From assembly GCA_013348845.1 (NCBI GenBank), contig CP054675.1, positions 939,501 through 1,003,500 on the forward strand: a stretch of DNA of 64,000 nucleotides. Reading direction: 5' to 3'. This DNA is from Candidatus Tepidiaquacella proteinivora (lineage in GTDB: Bacteria > Bacteroidota > Ignavibacteria > Tepidaquicellales > Tepidaquicellaceae). Numbering within the stretch: the stretch's first letter is position 1; the number at the start of each line of letters is the position of its first letter. Of this stretch, positions 1,397 through 51,768 are shown piece after piece. A program made the position numbers and the translations under genes. The notes beneath the pieces are model-generated. The model searched no databases and had not been told where the DNA came from. It saw only the letters and a program-made list of their open reading frames with translations.

Positions 1397-4300
1397 TTAG
1401 AAATTAATCCTTTCCTGAGCTGTGAATACAACTATCTTAAGCACTTTAGTACCGATACCAGGCGCATCAATAAGAGCAATATAAATACCTGATGCTACAG
1501 GAACTTTAGATTCGTTTTGCAAATTCCATTCAAGTGTACTATTAGTAGAGCCGGGCGGATCATTCTTTTCAAGTGTCTTAATCAAATCACCATTCAAAGT
1601 ATAAATCTTAATTGTGCATTTCAATGGTAGATGCCTGAATGTAACGAATTTATCACTTAAAGATCTATCAAGGGTACTGAAACCATAATAGGGATTCGGT
1701 ACGACTTTTATCTTATCCAGAGCATTTGTTTCTTTTGCATAATTGGGGTCTCCGAACTTCGGTGCAACCACATCAAATTCATAGAACAATGGTTTCGTCG
1801 GAACATTTGATGCTACATAAGGTCGTGTTACAGTATAAGGATATATATACATAGCATCACCTTCGGTAAAGTTAGCAGAAGAATTTATTCTTCTTGCTGC
1901 CCAGACATACATAACATCAATATTTGCAGTTATATATAAATTCCTTGATGTTGTTGCATAGAATGCATCCCAGGCAGGATCACCGTATGTTGAGTTGAAT
2001 ATATATAAGAATTCATAACTACCAGTACTATCTGAAGTGGGATCCCACTTGCCATCAATTTTTCCTCTTGGGATTGAATCGTTTGTTTCAAGAAATGCAC
2101 AATTCAATTGTCTCGGAGCTTCTGAACTGTCGGTTGGGTCAACTTCCCATACTGTAAATGGCACTTTCCTCTTGTCCTGATATATATAGAAATTATTTGC
2201 AGTAGTAGTATTAATTACATAAGGAGCAAATGATGGATCAGCTAACGGGAAATTGGTTCTTGCCAAGTATCTGTAAGCATATTGCTGTTTTGAAGTATCA
2301 TTTGAGAATTCTATCTTAATAACTCTTAATCCATCTGGTTTTATGGCTGATCCAACTGAATTGTATACATTTTTAGCAGGATATGTTAGCGACATAGATT
2401 TTGACTGGAATTTCGGATCCTGGTTATTTATTACAACCTTCGCTCCAGTAAGCCATAGATTCTGAGCCGGTGTATATTCCCATCCATATTTTCTTGTCTG
2501 AATACTATCAGGACTTAATGTTGGGTCTTTAATTACTCCAAAATTACCGGTATAACCGCCAACACTACCATCTGACGTATATCTAATCTTTTGCAGATTG
2601 AAATAGATGCCATCTAAAGTTTTAGATGAATCTTCAGATGATACTTTTGTTGGATTATATTTTAATCCGGTCTTAATTGTTACGAACGGGTCATTACCAA
2701 TTTTTCTTAAAATATTATATGTAGTATCAGGATTAAATACAACTCTATAGGTTGCATTTAACAATAAATTCTGATTTCTAATTATCGGACATAATCCAAG
2801 GTCTCTTATCGGGAATTTAACATCTAAAGTATCACCATTTTTATAAGTATAATAAGTACCTGCGGGTGGTGCAACAGGCCTTATTTTCAAAGTCTGTGCA
2901 CCTACAGAATTCCTTATGACTTTAAATCCTCTTCTGATTTTTGTCGAACCACTATAAGCGTACGCAACAACTGCAAACCTGTATTCCTGACCATAAATAA
3001 ACGATGTCTGTCCACCATAATTATTAGGAAATTGTGTCTTCGTTAATTTTATGCTTCTGGATATTCCGTGATTTGGAAAATCAGCCGGAACACCTAATTT
3101 ATATGGCGGAACTATTGGATATGGTGAAAACTGCTCATTACCATTTATAGTAACGCCCGTTGAAAATGTATCAATAATTATTCCTACATTATTTCGCTTG
3201 TCAAATATATCTACAAGAGCAATAACAGTTGGATCTATTGTTTCCGGTTTTGTGAAATCCGGAACTGTCTGAGCAAATCTGCTTATTTCATAAATTTCAT
3301 ATCCTTCAAAGTTGTATATATTAGAATCGTTTTGAGAATAAAATATTGTATCCCAATACTGGAATGATTCAGATATATCACCCCAGGTTAAGGTAATATT
3401 ACATAAACCACTAACCAATGGTTCAAATGAATATGTAACTTCCGGTGCTGGCGGAGGTGGAGTTACATTGAAGTTATTATCATATATTAATTGAGCCGTT
3501 TTAGAAAGTGATTTAAGTCTTGTAACCGAATTCACATTACTGCTGCCTCTCGCGGCAAATTGTGCAAGAACAACATTCTGAGTATCATTCGGATTTACAA
3601 TGAAATCTAACCTACCTGAAGAAAAGATAAATCTTCTATCAGCAGGGGCATTAACAGTAATAGGGGTACCGCAAGAATCACCATTACAATTCCTTAAACT
3701 ACCTTTAAATTCAGTCCATCCTATATTGGATTCAGGATCACCGGGATAAACAAATTTTACTTTTTTATAACAACTTCCACTGATTGGTTGTAACGGATCA
3801 ACATAAGCGGTAGAATCCTTCTTAAATCCCTGCATATTCAAATAAGCTGGGTATGGTTCACCATTAGGGTCAGATTCGCAAGGAGGTGGAGAACCGGAAG
3901 TATTAGTAAAGAATGTAAATGAGGTTAACCCCAATGTATCATTTGTAGCTCTTATGATTGGACTTTTGAAATAGTCCATACCAAAAGCAGGTGGATTAAC
4001 TCCGTAAACAGGATCATCATTATCACCATTGTAACAGAACCCTAAATTTAAAGTAGTATCACAACCGATATAATCATCATCAGCATTACCTAAATCCGGG
4101 TCAACAACAACACTAATCCAGGTTCTTTCCCAGGGCCTGTTTCCTTTATTAATAATCACCCAATTAATAAATTGCAAGTCTTCCAAACCCGGACCACTAT
4201 AGCACCAAGCTGTAAAATGCACTTCAGCATATAGTAATGGTGTATTGACACCACCACCAAACCCTTCACCGGGATTTTTCTGGTCAATAAATGCATCGGT

Positions 4301-4903
4301 ACAAGTCATAAAGATAGTTTGAGATGCATTTTTCATACCAGCAATATCAACTAACGGATCATATTGGCCATCATTATTCACATCAACAAAAGGTGCACCA
4401 TAAGGAACCATTAATCCCCAGTTAGCCCAGTCAGGGTTATTATAAGCATTATCACCAGATTTCACTTTATAAAGTTTATAATCCGTACCTGTTTTTGGAA
4501 TAGGTGTTATACCCGGTAAGATATAACCCGGTGTATATTCACCACGATATGATGCCATCACCTGACCCATTGCATATTTCTGTATCCCTGGTTCAGTTGA
4601 TGTATCAATCATACAAGCAATACATAAACCAGCAGTAAAACAGGCATACTTACCAGACCCTTTTGGCCATTCAAAGCCCGGGTGATTATTAGTCCTTGGG
4701 TCTTGATCGAAAATACCCCAATTGTAAAATATAGCGCTGATATTATTCCCATCTAAAAATAAGTACTGAAGGGGGACATCAGGTTGTACTCGATTAACAA
4801 AGGGGTCTCGTCCTGTTGGGTTTCTTCTTGGCAAAGAAAATGCTGTACTGCTGATTATTACTATTAGAAGTAATGTTAGTACATTTGTTATTTTTAATTT
4901 CAT
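1397..4903 (-). CDS. Large secreted protein with T9SS-type C-terminal domain
   Basis: A 1168-residue secreted protein of unknown function. Visible features are a signal peptide (about 1-23, ending AFS), a Cys-rich patch near residues 86-98, and a calcium-loop-like DVNNDGQYD motif near residue 175. About 900 residues of beta-rich sequence with Pro/Asn/Thr-rich strands follow. The C-terminal 100 residues contain KVVPNPYYG, TIKIYTLNGDLIKTL and VASGIYIALID, matching the T9SS type A sorting domain layout with PNPYYG replacing the usual YPNPFN. The protein is therefore probably exported by T9SS and anchored or released outside. It follows the TonB receptor gene with a 42-bp gap and no hairpin, so the two are likely co-transcribed. 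The start has an AAGGA ribosome-binding site. No enzyme motif was recognised. Confidence 0.75.
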   Translation of the reverse strand: MKLKITNVLTLLLIVIISSTAFSLPRRNPTGRDPFVNRVQPDVPLQYLFLDGNNISAIFYNWGIFDQDPRTNNHPGFEWPKGSGKYACFTAGLCIACMIDTSTEPGIQKYAMGQVMASYRGEYTPGYILPGITPIPKTGTDYKLYKVKSGDNAYNNPDWANWGLMVPYGAPFVDVNNDGQYDPLVDIAGMKNASQTIFMTCTDAFIDQKNPGEGFGGGVNTPLLYAEVHFTAWCYSGPGLEDLQFINWVIINKGNRPWERTWISVVVDPDLGNADDDYIGCDTTLNLGFCYNGDNDDPVYGVNPPAFGMDYFKSPIIRATNDTLGLTSFTFFTNTSGSPPPCESDPNGEPYPAYLNMQGFKKDSTAYVDPLQPISGSCYKKVKFVYPGDPESNIGWTEFKGSLRNCNGDSCGTPITVNAPADRRFIFSSGRLDFIVNPNDTQNVVLAQFAARGSSNVNSVTRLKSLSKTAQLIYDNNFNVTPPPPAPEVTYSFEPLVSGLCNITLTWGDISESFQYWDTIFYSQNDSNIYNFEGYEIYEISRFAQTVPDFTKPETIDPTVIALVDIFDKRNNVGIIIDTFSTGVTINGNEQFSPYPIVPPYKLGVPADFPNHGISRSIKLTKTQFPNNYGGQTSFIYGQEYRFAVVAYAYSGSTKIRRGFKVIRNSVGAQTLKIRPVAPPAGTYYTYKNGDTLDVKFPIRDLGLCPIIRNQNLLLNATYRVVFNPDTTYNILRKIGNDPFVTIKTGLKYNPTKVSSEDSSKTLDGIYFNLQKIRYTSDGSVGGYTGNFGVIKDPTLSPDSIQTRKYGWEYTPAQNLWLTGAKVVINNQDPKFQSKSMSLTYPAKNVYNSVGSAIKPDGLRVIKIEFSNDTSKQQYAYRYLARTNFPLADPSFAPYVINTTTANNFYIYQDKRKVPFTVWEVDPTDSSEAPRQLNCAFLETNDSIPRGKIDGKWDPTSDSTGSYEFLYIFNSTYGDPAWDAFYATTSRNLYITANIDVMYVWAARRINSSANFTEGDAMYIYPYTVTRPYVASNVPTKPLFYEFDVVAPKFGDPNYAKETNALDKIKVVPNPYYGFSTLDRSLSDKFVTFRHLPLKCTIKIYTLNGDLIKTLEKNDPPGSTNSTLEWNLQNESKVPVASGIYIALIDAPGIGTKVLKIVVFTAQERINF

Positions 4904-28506: not shown

Positions 28507-29853
28507 TTAATAATTTTCTAAGTTATTAATTATTTCAACATTACCAATATTTTCAAAAATATGTATATTTATTCTCTCCGGACCAACTATTGAGATAATT
28601 AAATTTTTTGTATCAATATACTTATTTGAAACTTCATATATATCTTTTTTACTTACCTTATATACTTTTGAAATTATTGTATTATAATAATTCTTTTTTA
28701 AATTATATAACTCAATTTTTAAAACTTTTGTTGCAATATCATTAGCGGTTTCTAATTGTAGAGGATAATTCCCAATAAAATAGTTCTTTGCTATATCAAG
28801 TTCATCATCAGAAACATAATCATTTTTAATTCGCTCTAATTCTTTTAATATTTCTTTTATTGTGTAAAGGACATGTTTATTACTAACACTTACTTCAACG
28901 GAAAAATCACCTTGATAACCAAAAGTATTAAAATTAGATGATGCACAATATGTGCATCCTTGAATTTCTCTTAAGTTATTATTAATCCTTGAAACAAACG
29001 TACCACCGAGAATCAGATTCATAACTTTAAGTTTTAATAAATCAGGGCATCTTTGGTTTACACCTTTATGACCAATATTTATGTTAGATTGCACGGAACC
29101 TTTTCTTGGGAGAATAAATATAGAAATACCTTTAATTGAATTCTGGGATAGAATTTTTGTCGTTGGTACTTTTTCATCTTCCCAGTCAGTAAAATATTTT
29201 TCTGTTAATCTGATTGCTTTACTTTCTGAAATATCTCCAACCAAGAAAATGTATAAATTATTCGGGGAGAAAAATTTATTATAAAATTTCAGAATATCAT
29301 TTCGAAAAATTCTTTTTAATGATTCTATAGTCCCATCAGAATCCTCAGCGTATAGTGATTTACCATAGACTTTCTTCTTGAATATTTTTCTTGAAAGATA
29401 CTCACCATAGGTATTGTTTAATTTAATTAAATTAATCTTCTGCAATTTTAATCTTTCAATCTCTTCTTCTTTAAATAGTGATTTCCTGAAAATATGATTT
29501 GTAAGAGAAAAAATTTTTTCGAAATTTTTTTTCAATGAATGAAAAGTTAAAAAAGAATAATCATAACTACACCCACTATATATATATGACCCTGATGATT
29601 CAACCAGATTTGCGATATCATTGGCAGAGAAGTCTTCCGTACCTTTTAATAATAAATCAGATGTAATGGAACATAATCCATATAAATTTCCACCATAATA
29701 AGAATCACAAAGCGAACCATTCTTAAAAACGAACATAGCATTTATAACCGGGAATCTGCTATCCTTTATAACATAAAGCTTAATATTGTTTTTTAATTTA
29801 AACTTAAAATAATCTGGTAACTTAATATCTTCGCATTTTGATTTTAAATTCAT
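28507..29853 (-). CDS. M16-family peptidase homolog lacking the zinc motif (inactive partner)
   Basis: A 448-residue M16 family protein with the usual two-repeat fold: an N-terminal half with LNNTYGEYLSRKIFKKKVYG and a middle part with VPTTKILSQNSIKGISIFILPRKG-type linker. At the site where active members have HxxEH, this one has LCSITSDLLLKG, so zinc cannot be bound there. In M16B enzymes such as mitochondrial processing peptidase, an inactive subunit pairs with an active one. The gene lies 3 bp after the active homolog at 29857, strongly suggesting such a heterodimer. No signal peptide is seen, so it is probably cytosolic. Function: peptide degradation or processing, inferred. Confidence 0.85.
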   Translation of the reverse strand: MNLKSKCEDIKLPDYFKFKLKNNIKLYVIKDSRFPVINAMFVFKNGSLCDSYYGGNLYGLCSITSDLLLKGTEDFSANDIANLVESSGSYIYSGCSYDYSFLTFHSLKKNFEKIFSLTNHIFRKSLFKEEEIERLKLQKINLIKLNNTYGEYLSRKIFKKKVYGKSLYAEDSDGTIESLKRIFRNDILKFYNKFFSPNNLYIFLVGDISESKAIRLTEKYFTDWEDEKVPTTKILSQNSIKGISIFILPRKGSVQSNINIGHKGVNQRCPDLLKLKVMNLILGGTFVSRINNNLREIQGCTYCASSNFNTFGYQGDFSVEVSVSNKHVLYTIKEILKELERIKNDYVSDDELDIAKNYFIGNYPLQLETANDIATKVLKIELYNLKKNYYNTIISKVYKVSKKDIYEVSNKYIDTKNLIISIVGPERINIHIFENIGNVEIINNLENY

Positions 29854-29856
29854 ATA

Positions 29857-31107
29857 TTAATCTTTCAAATAAGTTATAACAACTTTTTTATTAAAATCCA
29901 GATATTTTTTTATGGTATTCTTTATATCATCTCTTGTTACCATTAAATAATTATTTATATCATCATTTATTAAACCGACATTATTATTAAATAATTCGTA
30001 TGATAACAAAGATTGCGCTATAGAAATATTTTTCTGATATCCTGTTGAAAAAGCAAGATGAATTTTATTTTTTGCTTTTTCCAATTCTTCATCTGTAAAA
30101 TTCCCTTTTTTTAAGTTTTCCAATTCATTAAAAATAATAGTTTCAATATCTGAATTGTATTTTTTATCTGAGAATAATACAGAAATTTCAAAATCACCAC
30201 TATGTTGATATGATGCTGGATGAGCATAAATCATCTGTGCGATTTTCCTTTCGTAAATGAGATTCTTATAAAGTCTTGAACTAAAACCATCACTCAATAA
30301 AATCGAAATAATCTTTAATATATAATAATCTTTTGTGTTCCTTGCGTTAGTTTTGAAAAAGATAAACTTTCCATTTAATTCAATTTTTACCTTTGATTCA
30401 GGATATAAAATAATTGATGATTTAAAATCATTATCAATGAATTTATATCTTTTACTTTCCTTTGCAGGTAATGTATTATAATATTTATTTAAAATTTTTT
30501 CCGTTTTCAAATAATTTATATTACCTGTAACTATAATTACACAATTATCAGCATTATAATAATCATTATAGAAGTTAATTAAATCACTGCTTTTAATATT
30601 TTTTATGTTATTTTTTAAACCTATTACCGGAATTTCATAATCAGTATTTTTAAAAAGATTTTTTGTATACAAAAATTCCACATCACCATAAGGAGAATTA
30701 TCATAATTTTCGTATTTCTCTTCTATTACTACTTTTTTCTGTATGTTAACAATTTCATCATCAAAAATAACACCATTAAATCTCTTACTATCAAGAGAGG
30801 CGGCAAACTCTAATTTATAAGATGGTATTTGGATATAATAATATGTATAGTCAAAACCGGTTGCAGCATTTGAATATCCACCATTTAAAGATAATAATTT
30901 ATCAAAATCCATTTTATCTTTTCCTATCTTGGAGGAAAACATCAGATGTTCAAGTAAATGAGCAATTCCTTTTTTCCCTTCCGGTTCCATTTTAGACCCA
31001 ACCCTGAAACCTACAAGAAAAATAACAATGGGTATCCTTTTGTTCCCGGACATAATAACTTTAATTCCATTATTCAGATAGGTCTCAATAAATGGTATCT
31101 TATTCAT
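29857..31107 (-). CDS. M16-family zinc peptidase, active subunit
   Basis: A 416-residue M16B-type peptidase. The inverted zinc motif HLLEH is at residues 50-54, and the third ligand (VVIEEKYENY, E129 or E130) is about 76 residues later, the usual spacing. A Gly-rich GGYSNAATGFDYTYYY segment lies between. Length fits the roughly 420-residue single-cassette members that work as dimers. No signal peptide is visible. It is first of a likely operon with its inactive partner, MoxR and the methyltransferase, and diverges from the large outer-membrane protein gene at 31302 across a 194-bp gap. Confidence 0.92.
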   Translation of the reverse strand: MNKIPFIETYLNNGIKVIMSGNKRIPIVIFLVGFRVGSKMEPEGKKGIAHLLEHLMFSSKIGKDKMDFDKLLSLNGGYSNAATGFDYTYYYIQIPSYKLEFAASLDSKRFNGVIFDDEIVNIQKKVVIEEKYENYDNSPYGDVEFLYTKNLFKNTDYEIPVIGLKNNIKNIKSSDLINFYNDYYNADNCVIIVTGNINYLKTEKILNKYYNTLPAKESKRYKFIDNDFKSSIILYPESKVKIELNGKFIFFKTNARNTKDYYILKIISILLSDGFSSRLYKNLIYERKIAQMIYAHPASYQHSGDFEISVLFSDKKYNSDIETIIFNELENLKKGNFTDEELEKAKNKIHLAFSTGYQKNISIAQSLLSYELFNNNVGLINDDINNYLMVTRDDIKNTIKKYLDFNKKVVITYLKD

Positions 31108-31301: not shown

Positions 31302-34300
31302 ATGAGATATTTAAAAAATGCTTGCATAATATTAATTGTAATATTTTTAAGCCTTTCAGCTTTATCACAGGAATTTGGAAAGAACAAAGTGCAATACAAA
31401 TATTTTAAATGGAAATATATACAATCAAAACATTTTGATATATATTTTTACGATAATGGTTATGATATAGCAGAATTTACTGCTGTAGAAGCGGAAAAAG
31501 CTCTTGAAAAATTATCTTCCAATCTTGATTATTTTATAACTAATCGCATTCCAATAATTGTTTTTCTTTCTTCGAATGATTTCCGACAGAACAATGTTAT
31601 AGATGAATATCTTCCTGAAGGTGTAGGTGGGGTAACTGAATTATTTAAAAACAGAATACTAATTCCTTTTGAAGGTAAATATGAACAATTTAGACATGTA
31701 ATACATCATGAACTTTTACATGGCTTTATGAATGATATGTTCTATGGCGGTTCAATACAAAATATTATAGCAAGGAATATTACACTTGCATTCCCGACAT
31801 GGTTTGTTGAAGGGATGGCAGAAAGTCAAAGTCTTAACGGGTTAGATAAAGAAACCGATATGTTCATAAGAGATGCTATAATGAATGACTATTTACCACC
31901 AATCGAATATTGCGACGGATACTTAGCATATAGAGGTGGTCAAAGTTTTTTTGCTTTCCTTATGGATTATTACGGGGAATATAAAATTGGGGAATTGATG
32001 AATAATATAAAATCTCTAAACGATGTTTATGAAGGATTCAAAGAAACATATAAGTTAGAATTAGAAAAACTTTCTGAAAAATGGCTTAAAGAATTAAAAA
32101 AGAATTACTGGTCAGATGCAATAAACAGAGAAGAAGTGTTGGATTTTGCAAAAATGTTAACAGATCATAATAAAGATGGTGGATTTTATAATATAGCACC
32201 TTCTATATCTCCAGATGGAAAAATGTTTCTATTTATTTCAAATCGTGATGATTACTTCGATGTATTTCTTGCTGATGCTAATACAGGTAAAATTATAGAT
32301 AAAGTCGTAGAAGGTAATACGACCAATAATTTTGAAGAATTACAGGTGTTAACTCCGGGTCTAACCTGGTCTCCGGATTCTAAAAAAATGGCAATAAGTG
32401 TTAAAGCAGGAGAAAGTGATGCAATATTTGTAATTGATTTAAATAGTGGGGATAATACAAAATTACCAGTCAGTCTCCCCTCAATTTCAAATGCAAGTTG
32501 GTCACCCAAAGGAAGTTTACTTGCATTTACCGGAAACAACGGAAAACAATCAGACATATACATATATGATTTTAATACAAAAAAAATAACTAATCTAACC
32601 AATGATATTTTCTCAGATGAAAATCCTGTATGGTCTGTTGATGGAAAATACATTTATTTTGATTCAGACAGAAAAGATTTTATCAATCCTTCTCTATTAC
32701 CAAAAAATTTCAAAATATATTCTATGGATTATAATGGAAAAGGAATATACAGAATAAATATAAATACAAAGGAAATTGAAAAAGTAATAGACAATCCCAA
32801 TGCGAAAGAAACATATGTTCAGATAAGTTCTGATGGGAAAAAATTATTATATGTTTCTGATATTAACGGAATAAGTAATATTTATATGAGAGAATATGAT
32901 GAAGAAGGAGAATTCAGAGAGCGTCCAATAACAAATAGCCTTAATCCAATATCCCAAATCACATTATCAAAAGATGGTAAGAGGTTATTATTCGTATCAT
33001 TAAATAAAGGGGGTTATGATATTTTCTCAATGGAAAATCCATTCGAAAGAAACATTGGCTTAGAGAAACTTGAACCTACTAATTATGTGAAAAACAAAAT
33101 TAAAAAAGCTGAATTAACCAAGCAAAAAGACACATTATACAATAACAATAAAGATTCTATTATAACAAAAGATACAAACAACACTATAATTGATGTTAAC
33201 AATTTTACAAAAAAAGATTCTTCTGAAATTAAAGATGATAAAGTAATCATAGATTTCAAAAAGAAAAAGACGAGTAAAAAAATTATCAATAATGATTCTG
33301 ATTATGCTCATAACATAAATTTTCAGATAAAAGAAAATTTAAATCCTGATGGTAGTTTTAGAATCAGTGATTATAAGATTAAATTTTCCCCTGACCTTGT
33401 ATATGGTAATGCAAACTACTCAAGTTTTTATGGAGTTCAGGGAACAGCATCTATTTCTCTTAGTGATCTGATGGGAAATCACAGAATAAATATTTTAACT
33501 TCAATGGTAATTGATTTAAAGAATAGCGATTATGCTTTATCCTACTACTATTTGCCAAAAAGATTAGACGTCGGTTTTGAATTATATCATACAGCAAGAT
33601 TTATATTATACAATCGGGGTTATGGTGACGAACTTTTCAGATACAGAAATCTGGGAACGAGTCTTCTTTTTTCTTACCCATTAACAAGATTTAAAAGATT
33701 TGACGGCGGACTTTTCTTAATGCATGTTACACAAGAAAATCTCGACAACACACAAGAGCCGTCTAAATCAAATACTTTTCTGGTACCAACAATAAGATAT
33801 GTTTTTGATAACTCCCTGTGGGGTTACCTTGCACCTCAAAAAGGATCAAGGTTTAATATCACCTTATTGGGTTCGCCAAAATTAGGAAGTGATGGGATTG
33901 AATTCGCATCTGTTATCGGAGATTTCAGAAAATATCTTAAAATCTCAGATGGTTTTTCTTTTGCTATGCGGTTAAACCTCGGAGCAAGTTTTGGCAGAAA
34001 CCCGCAAAGATTTTATATTGGTGGAACAGAAAATTGGATTAACAGACAATTCGAAAATGACAACATCCCTATCAGCAATATCGATGAATATGCATTCTCA
34101 ATGCCAGTTTTACCATTAAGAGGATATAATTTTGATAGAATGTCTGGTTCTCGTTTCGCTCTTGCTAATTTAGAGTTAAGATTCCCTCTATTTCGTTATC
34201 TAATACTTGGAGTATTACCACTTGGTTTTCAGGATATACAAGGAAATCTTTTCCTTGATATGGGTACAGCGTGGAAGGATGATAAGAAATTACAATTATT

Positions 34301-34466
34301 CACCTCTGATGGAGGCTTGAAAACTAAGGATTTATTAATTGGTATGGGCTATGGCTTTAGATTGGTATTTCTCGGAATACCATTCAAATTTGATGTTGCT
34401 TATAGTTTTGACTTTAAGAAATTCTCTGAACCCAAATATTATTTTTCTTTGGGATTAGATTTCTAA
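31302..34466 (+). CDS. Zinc-peptidase / beta-propeller / outer-membrane barrel fusion protein
   Basis: A 1054-residue envelope protein with four parts. A signal peptide (about 1-22, ending ALSQ) is followed by a peptidase-MA-like metallopeptidase domain (about 25-270) with HELLH at residues 136-140 and a downstream Glu in WFVEGMAESQ. Next are PD40/TolB-like propeller repeats (about 285-590), with motifs such as ISPDGKMFLFISNRDDYFDV and WSPDSKKMAISV. A Lys/Asp-rich low-complexity linker (about 600-670) leads into a C-terminal BamA/TamA-like barrel (about 690-1054) with LPLRGYNFDRMSGSRF and terminal Phe (LGLDF). The barrel places the protein in the outer membrane, so the peptidase and propeller should face the periplasm or surface. 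The architecture occurs in the Ignavibacteria/Chlorobi lineage, but its substrate is unknown. Confidence 0.85.
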   Translation: MRYLKNACIILIVIFLSLSALSQEFGKNKVQYKYFKWKYIQSKHFDIYFYDNGYDIAEFTAVEAEKALEKLSSNLDYFITNRIPIIVFLSSNDFRQNNVIDEYLPEGVGGVTELFKNRILIPFEGKYEQFRHVIHHELLHGFMNDMFYGGSIQNIIARNITLAFPTWFVEGMAESQSLNGLDKETDMFIRDAIMNDYLPPIEYCDGYLAYRGGQSFFAFLMDYYGEYKIGELMNNIKSLNDVYEGFKETYKLELEKLSEKWLKELKKNYWSDAINREEVLDFAKMLTDHNKDGGFYNIAPSISPDGKMFLFISNRDDYFDVFLADANTGKIIDKVVEGNTTNNFEELQVLTPGLTWSPDSKKMAISVKAGESDAIFVIDLNSGDNTKLPVSLPSISNASWSPKGSLLAFTGNNGKQSDIYIYDFNTKKITNLTNDIFSDENPVWSVDGKYIYFDSDRKDFINPSLLPKNFKIYSMDYNGKGIYRININTKEIEKVIDNPNAKETYVQISSDGKKLLYVSDINGISNIYMREYDEEGEFRERPITNSLNPISQITLSKDGKRLLFVSLNKGGYDIFSMENPFERNIGLEKLEPTNYVKNKIKKAELTKQKDTLYNNNKDSIITKDTNNTIIDVNNFTKKDSSEIKDDKVIIDFKKKKTSKKIINNDSDYAHNINFQIKENLNPDGSFRISDYKIKFSPDLVYGNANYSSFYGVQGTASISLSDLMGNHRINILTSMVIDLKNSDYALSYYYLPKRLDVGFELYHTARFILYNRGYGDELFRYRNLGTSLLFSYPLTRFKRFDGGLFLMHVTQENLDNTQEPSKSNTFLVPTIRYVFDNSLWGYLAPQKGSRFNITLLGSPKLGSDGIEFASVIGDFRKYLKISDGFSFAMRLNLGASFGRNPQRFYIGGTENWINRQFENDNIPISNIDEYAFSMPVLPLRGYNFDRMSGSRFALANLELRFPLFRYLILGVLPLGFQDIQGNLFLDMGTAWKDDKKLQLFTSDGGLKTKDLLIGMGYGFRLVFLGIPFKFDVAYSFDFKKFSEPKYYFSLGLDF

Positions 34467-43594: not shown

Positions 43595-46030
43595 ATGAAA
43601 AAAATTTTTTTATATATTATATTATTTTGTGCAACAGCAGCAGGACAAGAAATTTATAATATAAAATCTGCTCTTGATAATGTTAATGAAGAAGTAAAAA
43701 GCAAAAATTCTTATAATAGAGAAAAATGGTTCTATGAACAAAGGATATACCCTTTAGGATTTATTCCAAAAAATGCATATTTAAATGCATATCAAAAAAA
43801 ACTCGAATTAAGATTTAGCAAAGGATATTATTTAAGTAATTATAATTGGGTTAATATCGGACCCACGCCGGGATTTAATCAGAATTATGGAAATGTCTCC
43901 TCAAGAATTCTATCAGTCAAGTATGACCCAAATAATCCACAAATAATTTATTTAGGAGCTGCATATGGAGGTGTATGGAAAACGACTAATGGTGGAGAAA
44001 GTTGGTTCCCAAAAACCGATTTTGAAATTTCACTTTCATCAGGCGCTATTGCTATAGATCCTAATAACACAAATATTATTTATTACGGAACTGGTGAAGC
44101 AACATATTCAGGTGTATCTTATTTCGGGAGAGGATTATTAAAATCCACAGATGGTGGTGAAACATGGGTAAATTACAGAGCTGGGCTTCCAGATATGACT
44201 TATTTTTCAAGGTTGGTTATAGTTCCTAATAAATCCAATGTTTTATTCGCAGCACTTGGAATCGCTGGCTTATATAAGAGTACTAATTCAGGAGAAAGCT
44301 GGTTTCAGGTTATATCGGGCAGATGTGACGATATTGTCTTTTCCCCGGATGGAAATAAGGCATACATAATAGGACAGGGATGCGGATACAGGATATCAAC
44401 AAATGGAGGAGAAAGTTTTGTTACATATGAAGTTTTTACACTTGGTTCAAGAAACCATCTGGCAATTTGTAAAAGTTCTCCAAATATATTATATGCTTCT
44501 TTATATATCGGTAGTGATGTATATGTTTATAAATCAACAAACGGAGGATATAATTACTCTCTCCTACAAAATACATTTACCGGCACAAATCAGGCATGGT
44601 ATGATTTTTATATACACGTTAATCCTTTCGACCCAAATTATGCTTACGTTGGATTAATAGATTTATGGAGAACTACAAACGGAAGGGATTTTTATAAAAT
44701 TACAAATACTTCATCAGGACCAGTTCATGTAGATCATCACAATATGGAATTTCATCCTAATGATCCTAATAAATTAATAGCCGCAACAGATGGAGGATTA
44801 TATTATTCAACAAACAGAGGAACAAACTGGATAAATCTTAATGCGACTCAGACATTAACACAATTTTACAGGATATCATCAGATCCTGAGAATTCAAATC
44901 ATTTAATCGGTGGTACACAGGATAATGGTACACAAAGAACTATCGGTGACTTGAGGTGGAATGTAGTATTTGGAGGTGATGGCGGTGAAGTTTGTTTTCA
45001 TATAAAAAACACAAAGAATATACTTGGTGAATATCAGTTTAACGATATAATGCGTTCAGAAGATGGTGGAATAACCTGGGTACCATCAACAAACGGATTA
45101 TCAGGAAATGCTGCCTGGATTGCCCCGATTGTTTGTCATCCTGATTCTGCAAATATATTTTATACTGCGAGAAATAGAATTTTTAAATCATACAATAAAG
45201 GAGCAACCTGGTCACCAATTTCTTCAGGGACTTATGGGACAATACAAGAAATGGCTATATCAAAATCAAACCCGAATATAATTTACGCTTCAGCAGGTTC
45301 AGTTTTATTTAAATCTACTGATTGTGGCTATACTTTCAAAAATGTAATTACAAATCTACCAGATAGAATAATAACGAGTATCAGCATTCATCCTGATTCA
45401 TCAGATGTAATTCTATTAACATACAGTGGTTTTAATACAAGCCATATTTTAAAATCTTCAAATGGTGGAAATAACTGGGTTAATCTCACTTCGGATTTAC
45501 CTGATATACCCGTAAACGATGGGATGTTTTACTACCCTGGTTATTCAACAGGCATTTTACTCGTAGCCACTGATATCGGTGTATTTATTTCTGAGAATTA
45601 CGGGGCAAACTGGATTGAGTTAGCAAACGGTCTCCCCAATACAGTATCTATACATTTAGATTACAATCCTGCATCAAAAAAAATCCGTGTCGGAACTCAT
45701 GGAAGAGGTGTATGGGAATTTAACGGCAATTTAATTGGCATTATAAACCAATATTCTTCAAATGCAGACAATTACGATTTACTTCAAAATTATCCGAATC
45801 CATTCAATGAAGAAACAATAATAAGTTTTCAAATTAAAGAAAAACAATTTGTAAAACTCACAATTTATGACATTCTTGGGAATGAAAAACTCACCCTAAT
45901 AAACAAATTATTAGAAGCAGGAAAATACAAAGTTAGTTTTAATGGAGTTAATTTTCCGAGCGGAATATATTTCTATAAAATCCAGACAGCAAAATTCTCT
46001 GCAACACGACAAATGATTTTAATAAAATAA
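43595..46030 (+). CDS. T9SS-sorted Asp-box beta-propeller protein
   Basis: An 811-residue secreted protein. A signal peptide (about 1-18, ending TAAGQ) is followed by propeller blades with about eleven Asp-box motifs (S/T-x-N/D-x-G-x-x-W/F), for example TTNGGESWFP, STDGGETWVN, STNSGESWFQ, STNRGTNWIN, SEDGGITWVP, SYNKGATWSP and SSNGGNNWVN. The C-terminal 80 residues are a T9SS sorting domain (LQNYPNPFNEET, YDILGNEKLTL, FPSGIYFYKI, QMILIK). The fold resembles Vps10/sortilin and family-74 xyloglucanase-like propellers, but no catalytic Asp pair was identified. Probably an extracellular adhesin, sensor of surface sugars or enzyme. It stands alone on the plus strand. Confidence 0.85.
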   Translation: MKKIFLYIILFCATAAGQEIYNIKSALDNVNEEVKSKNSYNREKWFYEQRIYPLGFIPKNAYLNAYQKKLELRFSKGYYLSNYNWVNIGPTPGFNQNYGNVSSRILSVKYDPNNPQIIYLGAAYGGVWKTTNGGESWFPKTDFEISLSSGAIAIDPNNTNIIYYGTGEATYSGVSYFGRGLLKSTDGGETWVNYRAGLPDMTYFSRLVIVPNKSNVLFAALGIAGLYKSTNSGESWFQVISGRCDDIVFSPDGNKAYIIGQGCGYRISTNGGESFVTYEVFTLGSRNHLAICKSSPNILYASLYIGSDVYVYKSTNGGYNYSLLQNTFTGTNQAWYDFYIHVNPFDPNYAYVGLIDLWRTTNGRDFYKITNTSSGPVHVDHHNMEFHPNDPNKLIAATDGGLYYSTNRGTNWINLNATQTLTQFYRISSDPENSNHLIGGTQDNGTQRTIGDLRWNVVFGGDGGEVCFHIKNTKNILGEYQFNDIMRSEDGGITWVPSTNGLSGNAAWIAPIVCHPDSANIFYTARNRIFKSYNKGATWSPISSGTYGTIQEMAISKSNPNIIYASAGSVLFKSTDCGYTFKNVITNLPDRIITSISIHPDSSDVILLTYSGFNTSHILKSSNGGNNWVNLTSDLPDIPVNDGMFYYPGYSTGILLVATDIGVFISENYGANWIELANGLPNTVSIHLDYNPASKKIRVGTHGRGVWEFNGNLIGIINQYSSNADNYDLLQNYPNPFNEETIISFQIKEKQFVKLTIYDILGNEKLTLINKLLEAGKYKVSFNGVNFPSGIYFYKIQTAKFSATRQMILIK

Positions 46031-48867: not shown

Positions 48868-51768
48868 TCAATATCCAAAAATTTCTTCAAGGGTTAACTC
48901 AGTTAATTTCCCATATTTACTTAATAATTCAAAATCTAATTTACTTTTATCTCCGATTACAAGATAAGTGTATTTATTATTTTGGTAATATTGATTGTGA
49001 AACTCCTTAATATCAGATAATGTCATTGTGGGTATCTTGTTGTAAACAACTTCTCTAATATCATAATCTAAACCATATTTCAGGTTATTCAGATAATTTT
49101 TAATAATATCAAATCTTAGAATCCTTTCTGATTGGATTTGTTTTATAATACCTTCCTTAGCTGAATTAAATGAGATCTCAGACTCTGGTAAAACATTCAA
49201 AAGAACATTAAATCCGTCGAGGGCTTCTCCAAGTTTATCGGATTGAGTACCGATATAGGAAGTAATATAATATGATTTACCTTTCTTTCCCGGGGTTGTG
49301 AAACTTGAATACACAGAATAAGCAAGTGCTTTTGCTTCCCTCAATTCCTGAAAAACAATAGAAGACATTCCGGCACCAAAATACTCATTAAATAATCTTA
49401 TAACAGGTGTTAATTCAGGGGTATATATTTTACTTTTATTAATCATCATAATTTCTACCTGTTGCATCCTGTAATTAACATAATAAACTTTCTCCTCTGT
49501 CTCAAGTTCAGGAAAATCCTTTTCAGGCGGAGGATCTAAAGGGATAATTTTTTGGGAATAATATGGCATAATTGAATTCAGAAATTCATCAAATTCAAAT
49601 GAACCATAATAAGCAATTTTATGCTGAATATTAGTTAATTTCTTAATTAAAGATGTTAAATCTTCTCCTTTAAGTTTATTCAACTCTTCTGAAGATAAAA
49701 TATTTGTAAATGGAGAATTAGCACCATATTTACCATAATTAACCATCGCTTGTCTTAAAATAGTATTCTTTGAAAGCTTAGCATTTTCTCTTTCCTTCAA
49801 TTCGTCAGATATTAAATTTTTCAACGCATTATCATCACCTTTACAGTTATTAAGCAAATGATAAAGTAAGTTAAGCGCTTTATTTAAATTTTTATTCAAA
49901 CCACTTAATTTTATCTCACATCTATCATAAGTTGCTGTTGCCTCAAAAGAACACCCTATTTTATAAAACTCAACGCATAAATCATTTGCTGTATATTTAT
50001 CAGTTCCAATCAAGGATAAATATTTCATAGCAAGATTTAATCTTTTATCATTATTCGTGCCCATATCATAAATCATAGAGAACTGAAATAAATCATTTTC
50101 ATCATTCTTTAAATAATAAATTTTATTTTTTGATTGAATACTTTGTTCTTTAATTTTTTCTCTATAATTTATAAACTCTGGTTTAATATCAGAAACAGGG
50201 GTATTAACAATCTCTTTTAAGAATTCTGATTCTGTATCACGATTAACCTGCACAGGGGTTATTTCAGGTTTAATTATTTTCTGTACAGTTTTATCTTCAC
50301 CTGTTCTTTTATATACTGCAACATAATTATTATTGAAATATTTATTTGCGATATTAATAATATCCTGTTTTGTAATTTTTGAATATAAATCGATTTTCTT
50401 ATAATATTTATCCCATGGAATTTCCTGAGTAAATGAACTTACATAATCCGCAACTATAGCATTATTATCTTGCATCTTTTTTAGTTCATATAATTTTAAA
50501 TTGTTTAATACTGCTTCAAGGTACCAGTCTGCAAAATCACCTTTTTTAATTAGTTCGATTTGCGAAATGAGTAATGATCTCAATTCATCAAGGCTTTGTC
50601 CTTCTCTTGGAGATGCATTCATAAATAAAATTGAATAATCTTTCATATCATAAATATAAGCAGATGCCCTTAACACTTTTTGCTGTAAAATTAAATTCAA
50701 ATCAATTAAACCAGCTATACCGTTAAAGAGAATATTACTTAACATTTCAAGTTTTTCAAAATCATCTGAATTAGCACCAGGCAGACGAAATCCTAAATAT
50801 AAGAACTCCTGTTCAGGGCTATAAACTTCTTTTATAATTGGAGAAGAAATAGGTTCTTCCACAGGTGGAATAAATTCCGGAATTTGTTTCGGTTTAAAAT
50901 TGCCAAATTTTTCATCTATTATTTTTATTGCTTCATCAGGATTAATATCACCGGCAAGAATAATCGCCATATTGTTTGGGACATAATAAGTGTTATAATA
51001 ATCTATTACTTTTTTAATAGATGGGTTTTTTAAGTGCTCAACTGTACCGATAGTGGTTTGAGTGCCATAAGTATGTTTAGAAAATAAACCTTCCATTAAA
51101 GCTTCATAAGCTTTATAAAAGCCATTATCAAGACTTCTATTTTTTTCTTCATAAACCACTTCAAGTTCTGTATGAAATAATCGCATAATCGGATTACGAA
51201 ATCTTTCTGCTTCTATTGTTACCCATTTTTCAAACTGGTTCGCGGGAATATCATTTGTATAGACTGTTTGTTCAACTGATGTATATGCATTTGTTCCTTT
51301 TGCTCCAATAGCAGAGAGCATTTTATCGTATTCATTGGGTATAGCATACATCGAAGCAAGATAAGAAACACTATCAATCTTTCTATAAACATTTTTCCTT
51401 TCCTCCGGATCTTTTAAAGAACGATATTCTTCGTATAGATTTATTATTTCTTCAATTAATTTACCTTCGATAGAAAAATCTTTTGTCCCAAATTTATCAG
51501 TACCTTTGAATAACATATGCTCAAGATAATGAGCAAGACCTGTAGCATCTGAAGGATCCAATTTACTTCCGGCTTTTACCGCAATTCTTGTTGCAATCCG
51601 GGGTTCAGACTTATTTACGCATATATACACTTTTAAGCCATTTTCAAGTGTATATATTCTTGTTTTCATTGGATCGTCCGGGAATGATATATAATGATAT
51701 TCTTTTTGAGCATATACTCCACTCACAAAAACCAAAATAACAATACTTAATAAATATATTAATTTCAT
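48868..51768 (-). CDS. Secreted M16-family zinc peptidase (double-length)
   Basis: A 966-residue insulinase-type peptidase with signal peptide (about 1-20, ending VYA). The zinc motif HYLEH is at 80-84, the third ligand is in VVYEEKNRSLDNG, and a second inactive cassette makes up the C-terminal half. Full-length members work as a single-chain clamshell. Export suggests a periplasmic or surface role in degrading peptides, perhaps feeding the cell with amino acids or processing secreted chains. Its start diverges from the M28 peptidase gene at 51879 across a 110-bp gap. Confidence 0.92.
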   Translation of the reverse strand: MKLIYLLSIVILVFVSGVYAQKEYHYISFPDDPMKTRIYTLENGLKVYICVNKSEPRIATRIAVKAGSKLDPSDATGLAHYLEHMLFKGTDKFGTKDFSIEGKLIEEIINLYEEYRSLKDPEERKNVYRKIDSVSYLASMYAIPNEYDKMLSAIGAKGTNAYTSVEQTVYTNDIPANQFEKWVTIEAERFRNPIMRLFHTELEVVYEEKNRSLDNGFYKAYEALMEGLFSKHTYGTQTTIGTVEHLKNPSIKKVIDYYNTYYVPNNMAIILAGDINPDEAIKIIDEKFGNFKPKQIPEFIPPVEEPISSPIIKEVYSPEQEFLYLGFRLPGANSDDFEKLEMLSNILFNGIAGLIDLNLILQQKVLRASAYIYDMKDYSILFMNASPREGQSLDELRSLLISQIELIKKGDFADWYLEAVLNNLKLYELKKMQDNNAIVADYVSSFTQEIPWDKYYKKIDLYSKITKQDIINIANKYFNNNYVAVYKRTGEDKTVQKIIKPEITPVQVNRDTESEFLKEIVNTPVSDIKPEFINYREKIKEQSIQSKNKIYYLKNDENDLFQFSMIYDMGTNNDKRLNLAMKYLSLIGTDKYTANDLCVEFYKIGCSFEATATYDRCEIKLSGLNKNLNKALNLLYHLLNNCKGDDNALKNLISDELKERENAKLSKNTILRQAMVNYGKYGANSPFTNILSSEELNKLKGEDLTSLIKKLTNIQHKIAYYGSFEFDEFLNSIMPYYSQKIIPLDPPPEKDFPELETEEKVYYVNYRMQQVEIMMINKSKIYTPELTPVIRLFNEYFGAGMSSIVFQELREAKALAYSVYSSFTTPGKKGKSYYITSYIGTQSDKLGEALDGFNVLLNVLPESEISFNSAKEGIIKQIQSERILRFDIIKNYLNNLKYGLDYDIREVVYNKIPTMTLSDIKEFHNQYYQNNKYTYLVIGDKSKLDFELLSKYGKLTELTLEEIFGY

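Follow-up and report, generated by a model that had tools for sequence, protein, structure and literature searches.

Members of the WD40-Omp85 subfamily, described by Heinz and Lithgow in 2014, have an Omp85 barrel without POTRA domains, preceded by a TolB-like propeller; the main text of that survey gives their function as unknown and suggests a fused BamA-BamB (PMC4104836). An N-terminal enzyme domain on a 16-stranded Omp85 barrel is also found in the PL-Omp85 protein PlpD, which consists of a patatin phospholipase, POTRA, and the barrel; its enzyme domain was shown to be periplasmic, and an older claim of its export was overturned in 2024 (PMC11116518). TamA and TamL are Omp85 proteins whose genes often lie near tamB (PMC4494059, PMC12045153), and Omp85 genes, among them those for TamA, TamL, and BamA, recur next to tamB (PMC4494059). 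Finally, the M48 metallopeptidase BepA is a periplasmic zinc peptidase that works at an Omp85 machine, degrading stalled outer-membrane proteins at BAM (PMC8423444, PMC13067283). The Escherichia coli proteases BepA, YcaL, and LoiP are separate proteins, and the route of YcaL and LoiP to BAM clients is unknown (PMC13067283).

Here, we describe a protein from “Candidatus Tepidiaquacella proteinivora,” encoded in a stretch of 64,000 nucleotides (referred to below as the window), that combines a zinc peptidase, a propeller, and an Omp85 barrel in a single chain. The set of proteins to which it belongs is likely the WD40-Omp85 set of Heinz and Lithgow, with the same TolB-like propeller in front of a POTRA-less barrel. 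However, the word “peptidase” has 0 occurrences in the main text of that paper, whereas here a gluzincin with all its catalytic residues precedes the propeller; the “Metallo” subfamily (Pfam ID PF00149) listed there is a different one (PMC4104836). A literature search for the peptidase-propeller-Omp85 protein returned only this 2014 paper as relevant and no published mention of the peptidase. The peptidase-bearing WD40-Omp85 protein has so far been overlooked, and the tamB-rnr-gene order described below is new.

The protein also differs from the other systems. In place of the patatin and POTRA of PlpD, there are a peptidase and a propeller. POTRA domains are characterizing features of TamA and TamL, and plain membership in either group can be ruled out for the present protein, which has no POTRA; in addition, rnr stands between its gene and tamB. 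Any likeness to BepA would be one of role only, as BepA is a separate protein with another domain set, whereas the present peptidase and barrel share one covalent chain.

Domain architecture

The features of the gene, as well as its two paralogs in the same genome, are as follows.

31302..34466, + strand: peptidase-propeller-Omp85 gene, complete ORF, 1054 aa (ORF list, Pfam, AlphaFold2 model)
31302..31370, + strand: putative Sec signal peptide, residues 1-23, without a lipobox (read from the sequence; helix at residues 2-18 in the AlphaFold2 model)
31371..32159, + strand: gluzincin (MA-clan) zinc-peptidase domain, residues 24-286 (Peptidase_MA_2, AlphaFold2, fold matches)
31707..31721, + strand: HELLH, residues 136-140, with zinc ligands H136 and H140 and catalytic E137 (invariant in 74/74)
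31800..31823, + strand: WFVEGMAE, residues 167-174, with E170 probably serving as the third zinc ligand (74/74 for both E170 and E174)
32160..33071, + strand: six-bladed TolB-like β-propeller (PD40 repeats), residues 287-590 (Pfam, AlphaFold2, TolB match)
33072..33317, + strand: helix and disordered polar linker, residues 591-672 (pLDDT <50 at 616-663)
33318..34463, + strand: 16-stranded Omp85 barrel with PLRGY in L6 (938-942) and GNLFLDMG in β-13 (D986) (NCBIfam, AlphaFold2, BamA match, alignment)
L041:5983-8793: paralog of the same architecture, own genome, outside the window
L042:4336-7449: paralog of the same architecture, elsewhere in the own genome (not in the window)

An alignment of 74 orthologs was the input both to a full-chain AlphaFold2 model and to the residue-conservation counts. 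The model of the 1054-aa protein (pLDDT 83.4, pTM 0.79) shows, in this order, a signal helix, a mixed α/β peptidase, a six-bladed propeller, a helix with a disordered linker, and a 16-strand barrel. The metallopeptidase fold and the barrel, both proposed in the first-pass annotation from the sequence alone, are thus present in the predicted structure. A lipobox-like motif was seen in only 1 of the 74 orthologs. Among the orthologs, mean pairwise identity is 0.63 in the peptidase, 0.53 in the propeller, 0.52 in the barrel, and 0.21 in the linker.

The N-terminal domain is an MA-clan gluzincin by both motif and fold. Pfam Peptidase_MA_2 matches residues 64 to 265 (2e-8, above the cutoff), and the domain folded alone by AlphaFold2 (pLDDT 84.5) structurally matches M9 collagenases, M30 lugdulysin, and M1 aminopeptidases, with Z scores of 13.1 to 16.7. 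A search of the PDB with the peptidase sequence profile gave no hits, so that these relatives surfaced only through fold comparison. The HELLH motif noticed in the initial annotation is indeed part of the same polypeptide, as seen in the ORF translation, and WFVEGMAE starts 31 residues past the start of HExxH. This combination of HExxH with a downstream Glu zinc ligand, typical of gluzincins, is retained in both paralogs as well. The WFxEGxA motif is similar to NEGFA, the zinc-ligand motif of M1 peptidases. In the L042 paralog, the W..EG motif lies 57 residues after HExxH, instead of 29 to 31. H136, E137, H140, E170, E174, Y210, and R211 are each invariant in 74/74 aligned orthologs, which rules out a degenerate peptidase. 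The invariance of the zinc and catalytic residues, together with a sequence identity above that of every other domain, makes selection for catalysis probable, and the domain is predicted to be proteolytically active.

The PD40-type propeller of the early annotation has been confirmed by Pfam PD40 matches in five stretches (1.6e-28) and by the six blades of the model. It is similar to TolB in sequence (E 5e-12) and structure (Z 27.4, rmsd 2.3, 245 residues), but the propeller is all that the two proteins have in common. The NCBIfam TolB propeller match (6.6e-34) is below the curated cutoff, with 117.6 versus 343.15 bits for the TolB equivalog, and TolB is a stand-alone protein, whereas this one is multidomain, so it is not a member of the TolB (Tol-Pal) family. 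The linker, originally described as charged and flexible, is disordered and polar: its length in orthologs is 63 to 141 aa, with 66% polar residues.

The barrel spans residues 695 to 1050 of the AlphaFold2 model and matches Deinococcus radiodurans BamA (Z 25.2, rmsd 3.7, 312 residues) and TamA (Z 22.4), in line with the BamA/TamA-like barrel that had been claimed. The PLRGY loop is located between strands 11 and 12, the position of the Omp85 VRGF motif, and strand 13 bears the Omp85 Asp motif. R940, G941, Y/F942, and D986, each found in 74/74 orthologs, reproduce the RG[FY] and strand-13 Asp motifs of Omp85. NCBIfam Omp85 (NF047779) matches with an E value of 2.8e-9, below the curated cutoff, and a genome search with PF01103 retrieved one of the paralogs but not the 1054-aa protein itself. 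There is no Pfam hit to POTRA in this protein; the peptidase and the propeller fill its N terminus. Taken by its fold and motifs, the protein belongs to the Omp85 superfamily. The same genome also encodes a patatin-Omp85 (PlpD-like) protein (L158:2630-5377) and thus holds, despite its small size, several enzyme-Omp85 fusions.

Phyletic distribution

Matches were found in 40/40 relatives searched and in 142/148 genomes sampled across the phylum. Beyond the class, many matches span all or almost all of the protein, at 36 to 44% identity, and in some families there is only a partial match, chiefly to the propeller region. The named genomes with an ortholog come from Ignavibacteria, Ignavibacteriales, and Kryptonia and include bins labeled Bacteroidetes or Chlorobi. 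The architecture covers the class (Ignavibacteria, Kryptonia) and reaches further classes of the phylum. Full-length orthologs in other families and classes rule out a chance ORF or a fusion artifact, as do the matches in all 40 relatives and the retention of the catalytic residues and Omp85 motifs in all 74 orthologs. The outer-membrane protein is genuine and deeply conserved, both in Ignavibacteria and in bacteria related to them.

Gene neighborhoods

Clustering of the neighborhoods of named loci (75 of them scored) revealed two recurring upstream genes, coding for RNase R (rnr) and a repetitive TamB-family protein. The latter is identified as TamB by Pfam TamB hits in 4 of 21 family members (best 1.9e-19) and by the ortholog from the own genome, which scores 1.9e-180 against the profile of the recurring family and 78 bits against Pfam TamB. 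An upstream, co-directional rnr is found in 40/75 named loci, and both tamB and rnr are in this position in 32/75; the gaps between rnr and the peptidase-Omp85 gene are mostly <180 bp, and those between tamB and rnr are often 2 bp. An ortholog was listed for 78 sampled genomes; in 38 of these, tamB lies upstream in the same direction, with rnr in between where read. These 38 genomes represent eight families, f3, f4, f5, f10, and f13 from the same class and f14, f24, and f25 from other parts of the phylum; one further genome, from family f32, has a divergent tamB.

In eight loci from different families, tamB, rnr, and the peptidase-Omp85 gene are usually the sole genes in common within 15 kb. 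As a control, loci were compared pairwise across families: other genes in common within 15 kb were few and usually absent, except in the pairs f4-f13 and f5-f10. Because the other neighbors are mostly shuffled between families, the adjacency is retained rather than a by-product of general synteny, and it survives at 36 to 42% protein identity. This recurring gene order suggests that the protein acts with TamB.

The link is not universal. In the own genome, tamB and rnr are together at 1.31 Mb, away from the peptidase-Omp85 gene, which adjoins M16 peptidase genes at 0.97 Mb. Nor is the gene a neighbor of tamB in the other loci examined from the same family and order. This tamB-rnr pair of the own genome (L155:10096-16982), with tamB followed by rnr, is what is left of the operon of other families when the peptidase-Omp85 gene is absent. 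The M16 genes of the window are at 28507-29853 (-), 29857-31107 (-), and 48868-51768 (-); the first two form a tandem pair divergent from the peptidase-Omp85 gene, and M16 genes are located upstream in several close relatives as well. Elsewhere in the window, 43595-46030 (+) encodes a Sortilin/BNR-type protein with a T9SS C-terminal sorting domain (Por_Secre_tail), and 1397-4903 (-) is a 1168-aa ORF with no Pfam match at E 0.1.

The own genome also encodes a TamL-like POTRA-Omp85 protein (672 aa), most of which aligns with TamL (E 5e-16). Homologs of this POTRA-Omp85 protein are present in other genomes with the tamB-rnr-gene operon. Given this coexistence, TamB may already have a partner in such genomes. 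TamB is present in lineages without a full-length peptidase-propeller-Omp85 copy. Families f20 and f23 either lack the protein or match it only weakly, and in the three loci read from them, tamB adjoins a TamL-like POTRA-Omp85 gene with a product of ~765 aa (L168-L170).

Membrane topology and possible functions

A 16-strand barrel with a C-terminal β-signal has both its ends in the periplasm, and the N-terminal domains of BamA-type proteins are periplasmic. Since the modeled barrel has an even number of strands and a C-terminal β-signal, the peptidase and the propeller probably face the periplasm, in agreement with what is seen in PlpD. The first-pass annotation placed the protease at the cell surface, tethered to the outer membrane. 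The anchoring is supported by the 16-strand Omp85 barrel, but the barrel topology and the PlpD precedent argue against the surface location; processing of periplasmic proteins, its stated alternative, is possible.

The best explanation, to which we assign a probability of roughly 55%, is that this is a periplasm-facing protease involved in outer-membrane biogenesis or quality control with TAM/BAM-type assembly. The TolB-like propeller and the gluzincin peptidase would hang into the periplasm on the flexible linker, the propeller and the barrel would provide binding sites for client proteins or for the machinery of envelope assembly, and the peptidase would trim or degrade the clients, by analogy with BepA at BAM in E. 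coli. The protein would act together with TamB, which spans the periplasm. The working mode may thus be BepA-like; a role in quality control and physical contact with TamB are what we infer from these comparisons.

The same gene order could be taken further, with the protein as a dedicated outer-membrane partner of TamB, i.e., a functional equivalent of TamA or TamL in which the propeller replaces the POTRAs and the peptidase is an accessory. The upstream tamB in eight families, with rnr between, and the TamL-like POTRA-Omp85 gene that f20 and f23 have beside tamB instead are both consistent with such a role. It is rather doubtful, however, given that a TamL-like gene coexists with the peptidase-propeller-Omp85 protein in the same genomes, that the protein is without POTRA, and that the operon is not kept everywhere. 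Alternatively, the gene string could be left over from an ancestral transcription unit whose products do not touch each other, and the protein could be an outer-membrane-anchored protease with a housekeeping function in the periplasm and no functional tie to TamB. In many families, that of the window among them, the gene is found apart from the operon and the protein is kept nevertheless; still, the persistence of the string at 36 to 42% protein identity, with most other neighbors shuffled, makes this unlikely.

A surface protease of a type Vd-like kind, with the linker threading the barrel and the peptidase and propeller outside, processing surface or environmental proteins, must also be considered. 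The disordered linker is long enough for threading, and the enzyme-Omp85 fusion of PlpD was formerly read in this way. Its enzyme domain has since proved to be periplasmic (PMC11116518), as are the N-terminal domains of BamA-type proteins, and the barrel topology argues against a type Vd autotransporter with an exported passenger. Near-universal conservation and the tamB linkage also suit a housekeeping role better than a secreted enzyme, and we consider surface exposure improbable.

The protein might also be another kind of TamB-associated Omp85. It is conceivable, if still tentative, that the TAM of Ignavibacteria and related classes includes an outer-membrane subunit in which a zinc protease and a TolB-like propeller replace the POTRAs. 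If so, such a subunit would join proteolytic quality control and envelope assembly within a single polypeptide. A covalent protease-barrel version would be informative in comparison with the separate proteases of E. coli. For WD40-Omp85 proteins, listed since 2014 without a function, the invariant active site and the tamB gene order point to a protease on the TAM/BAM side of envelope biogenesis, a role that is concrete and testable.
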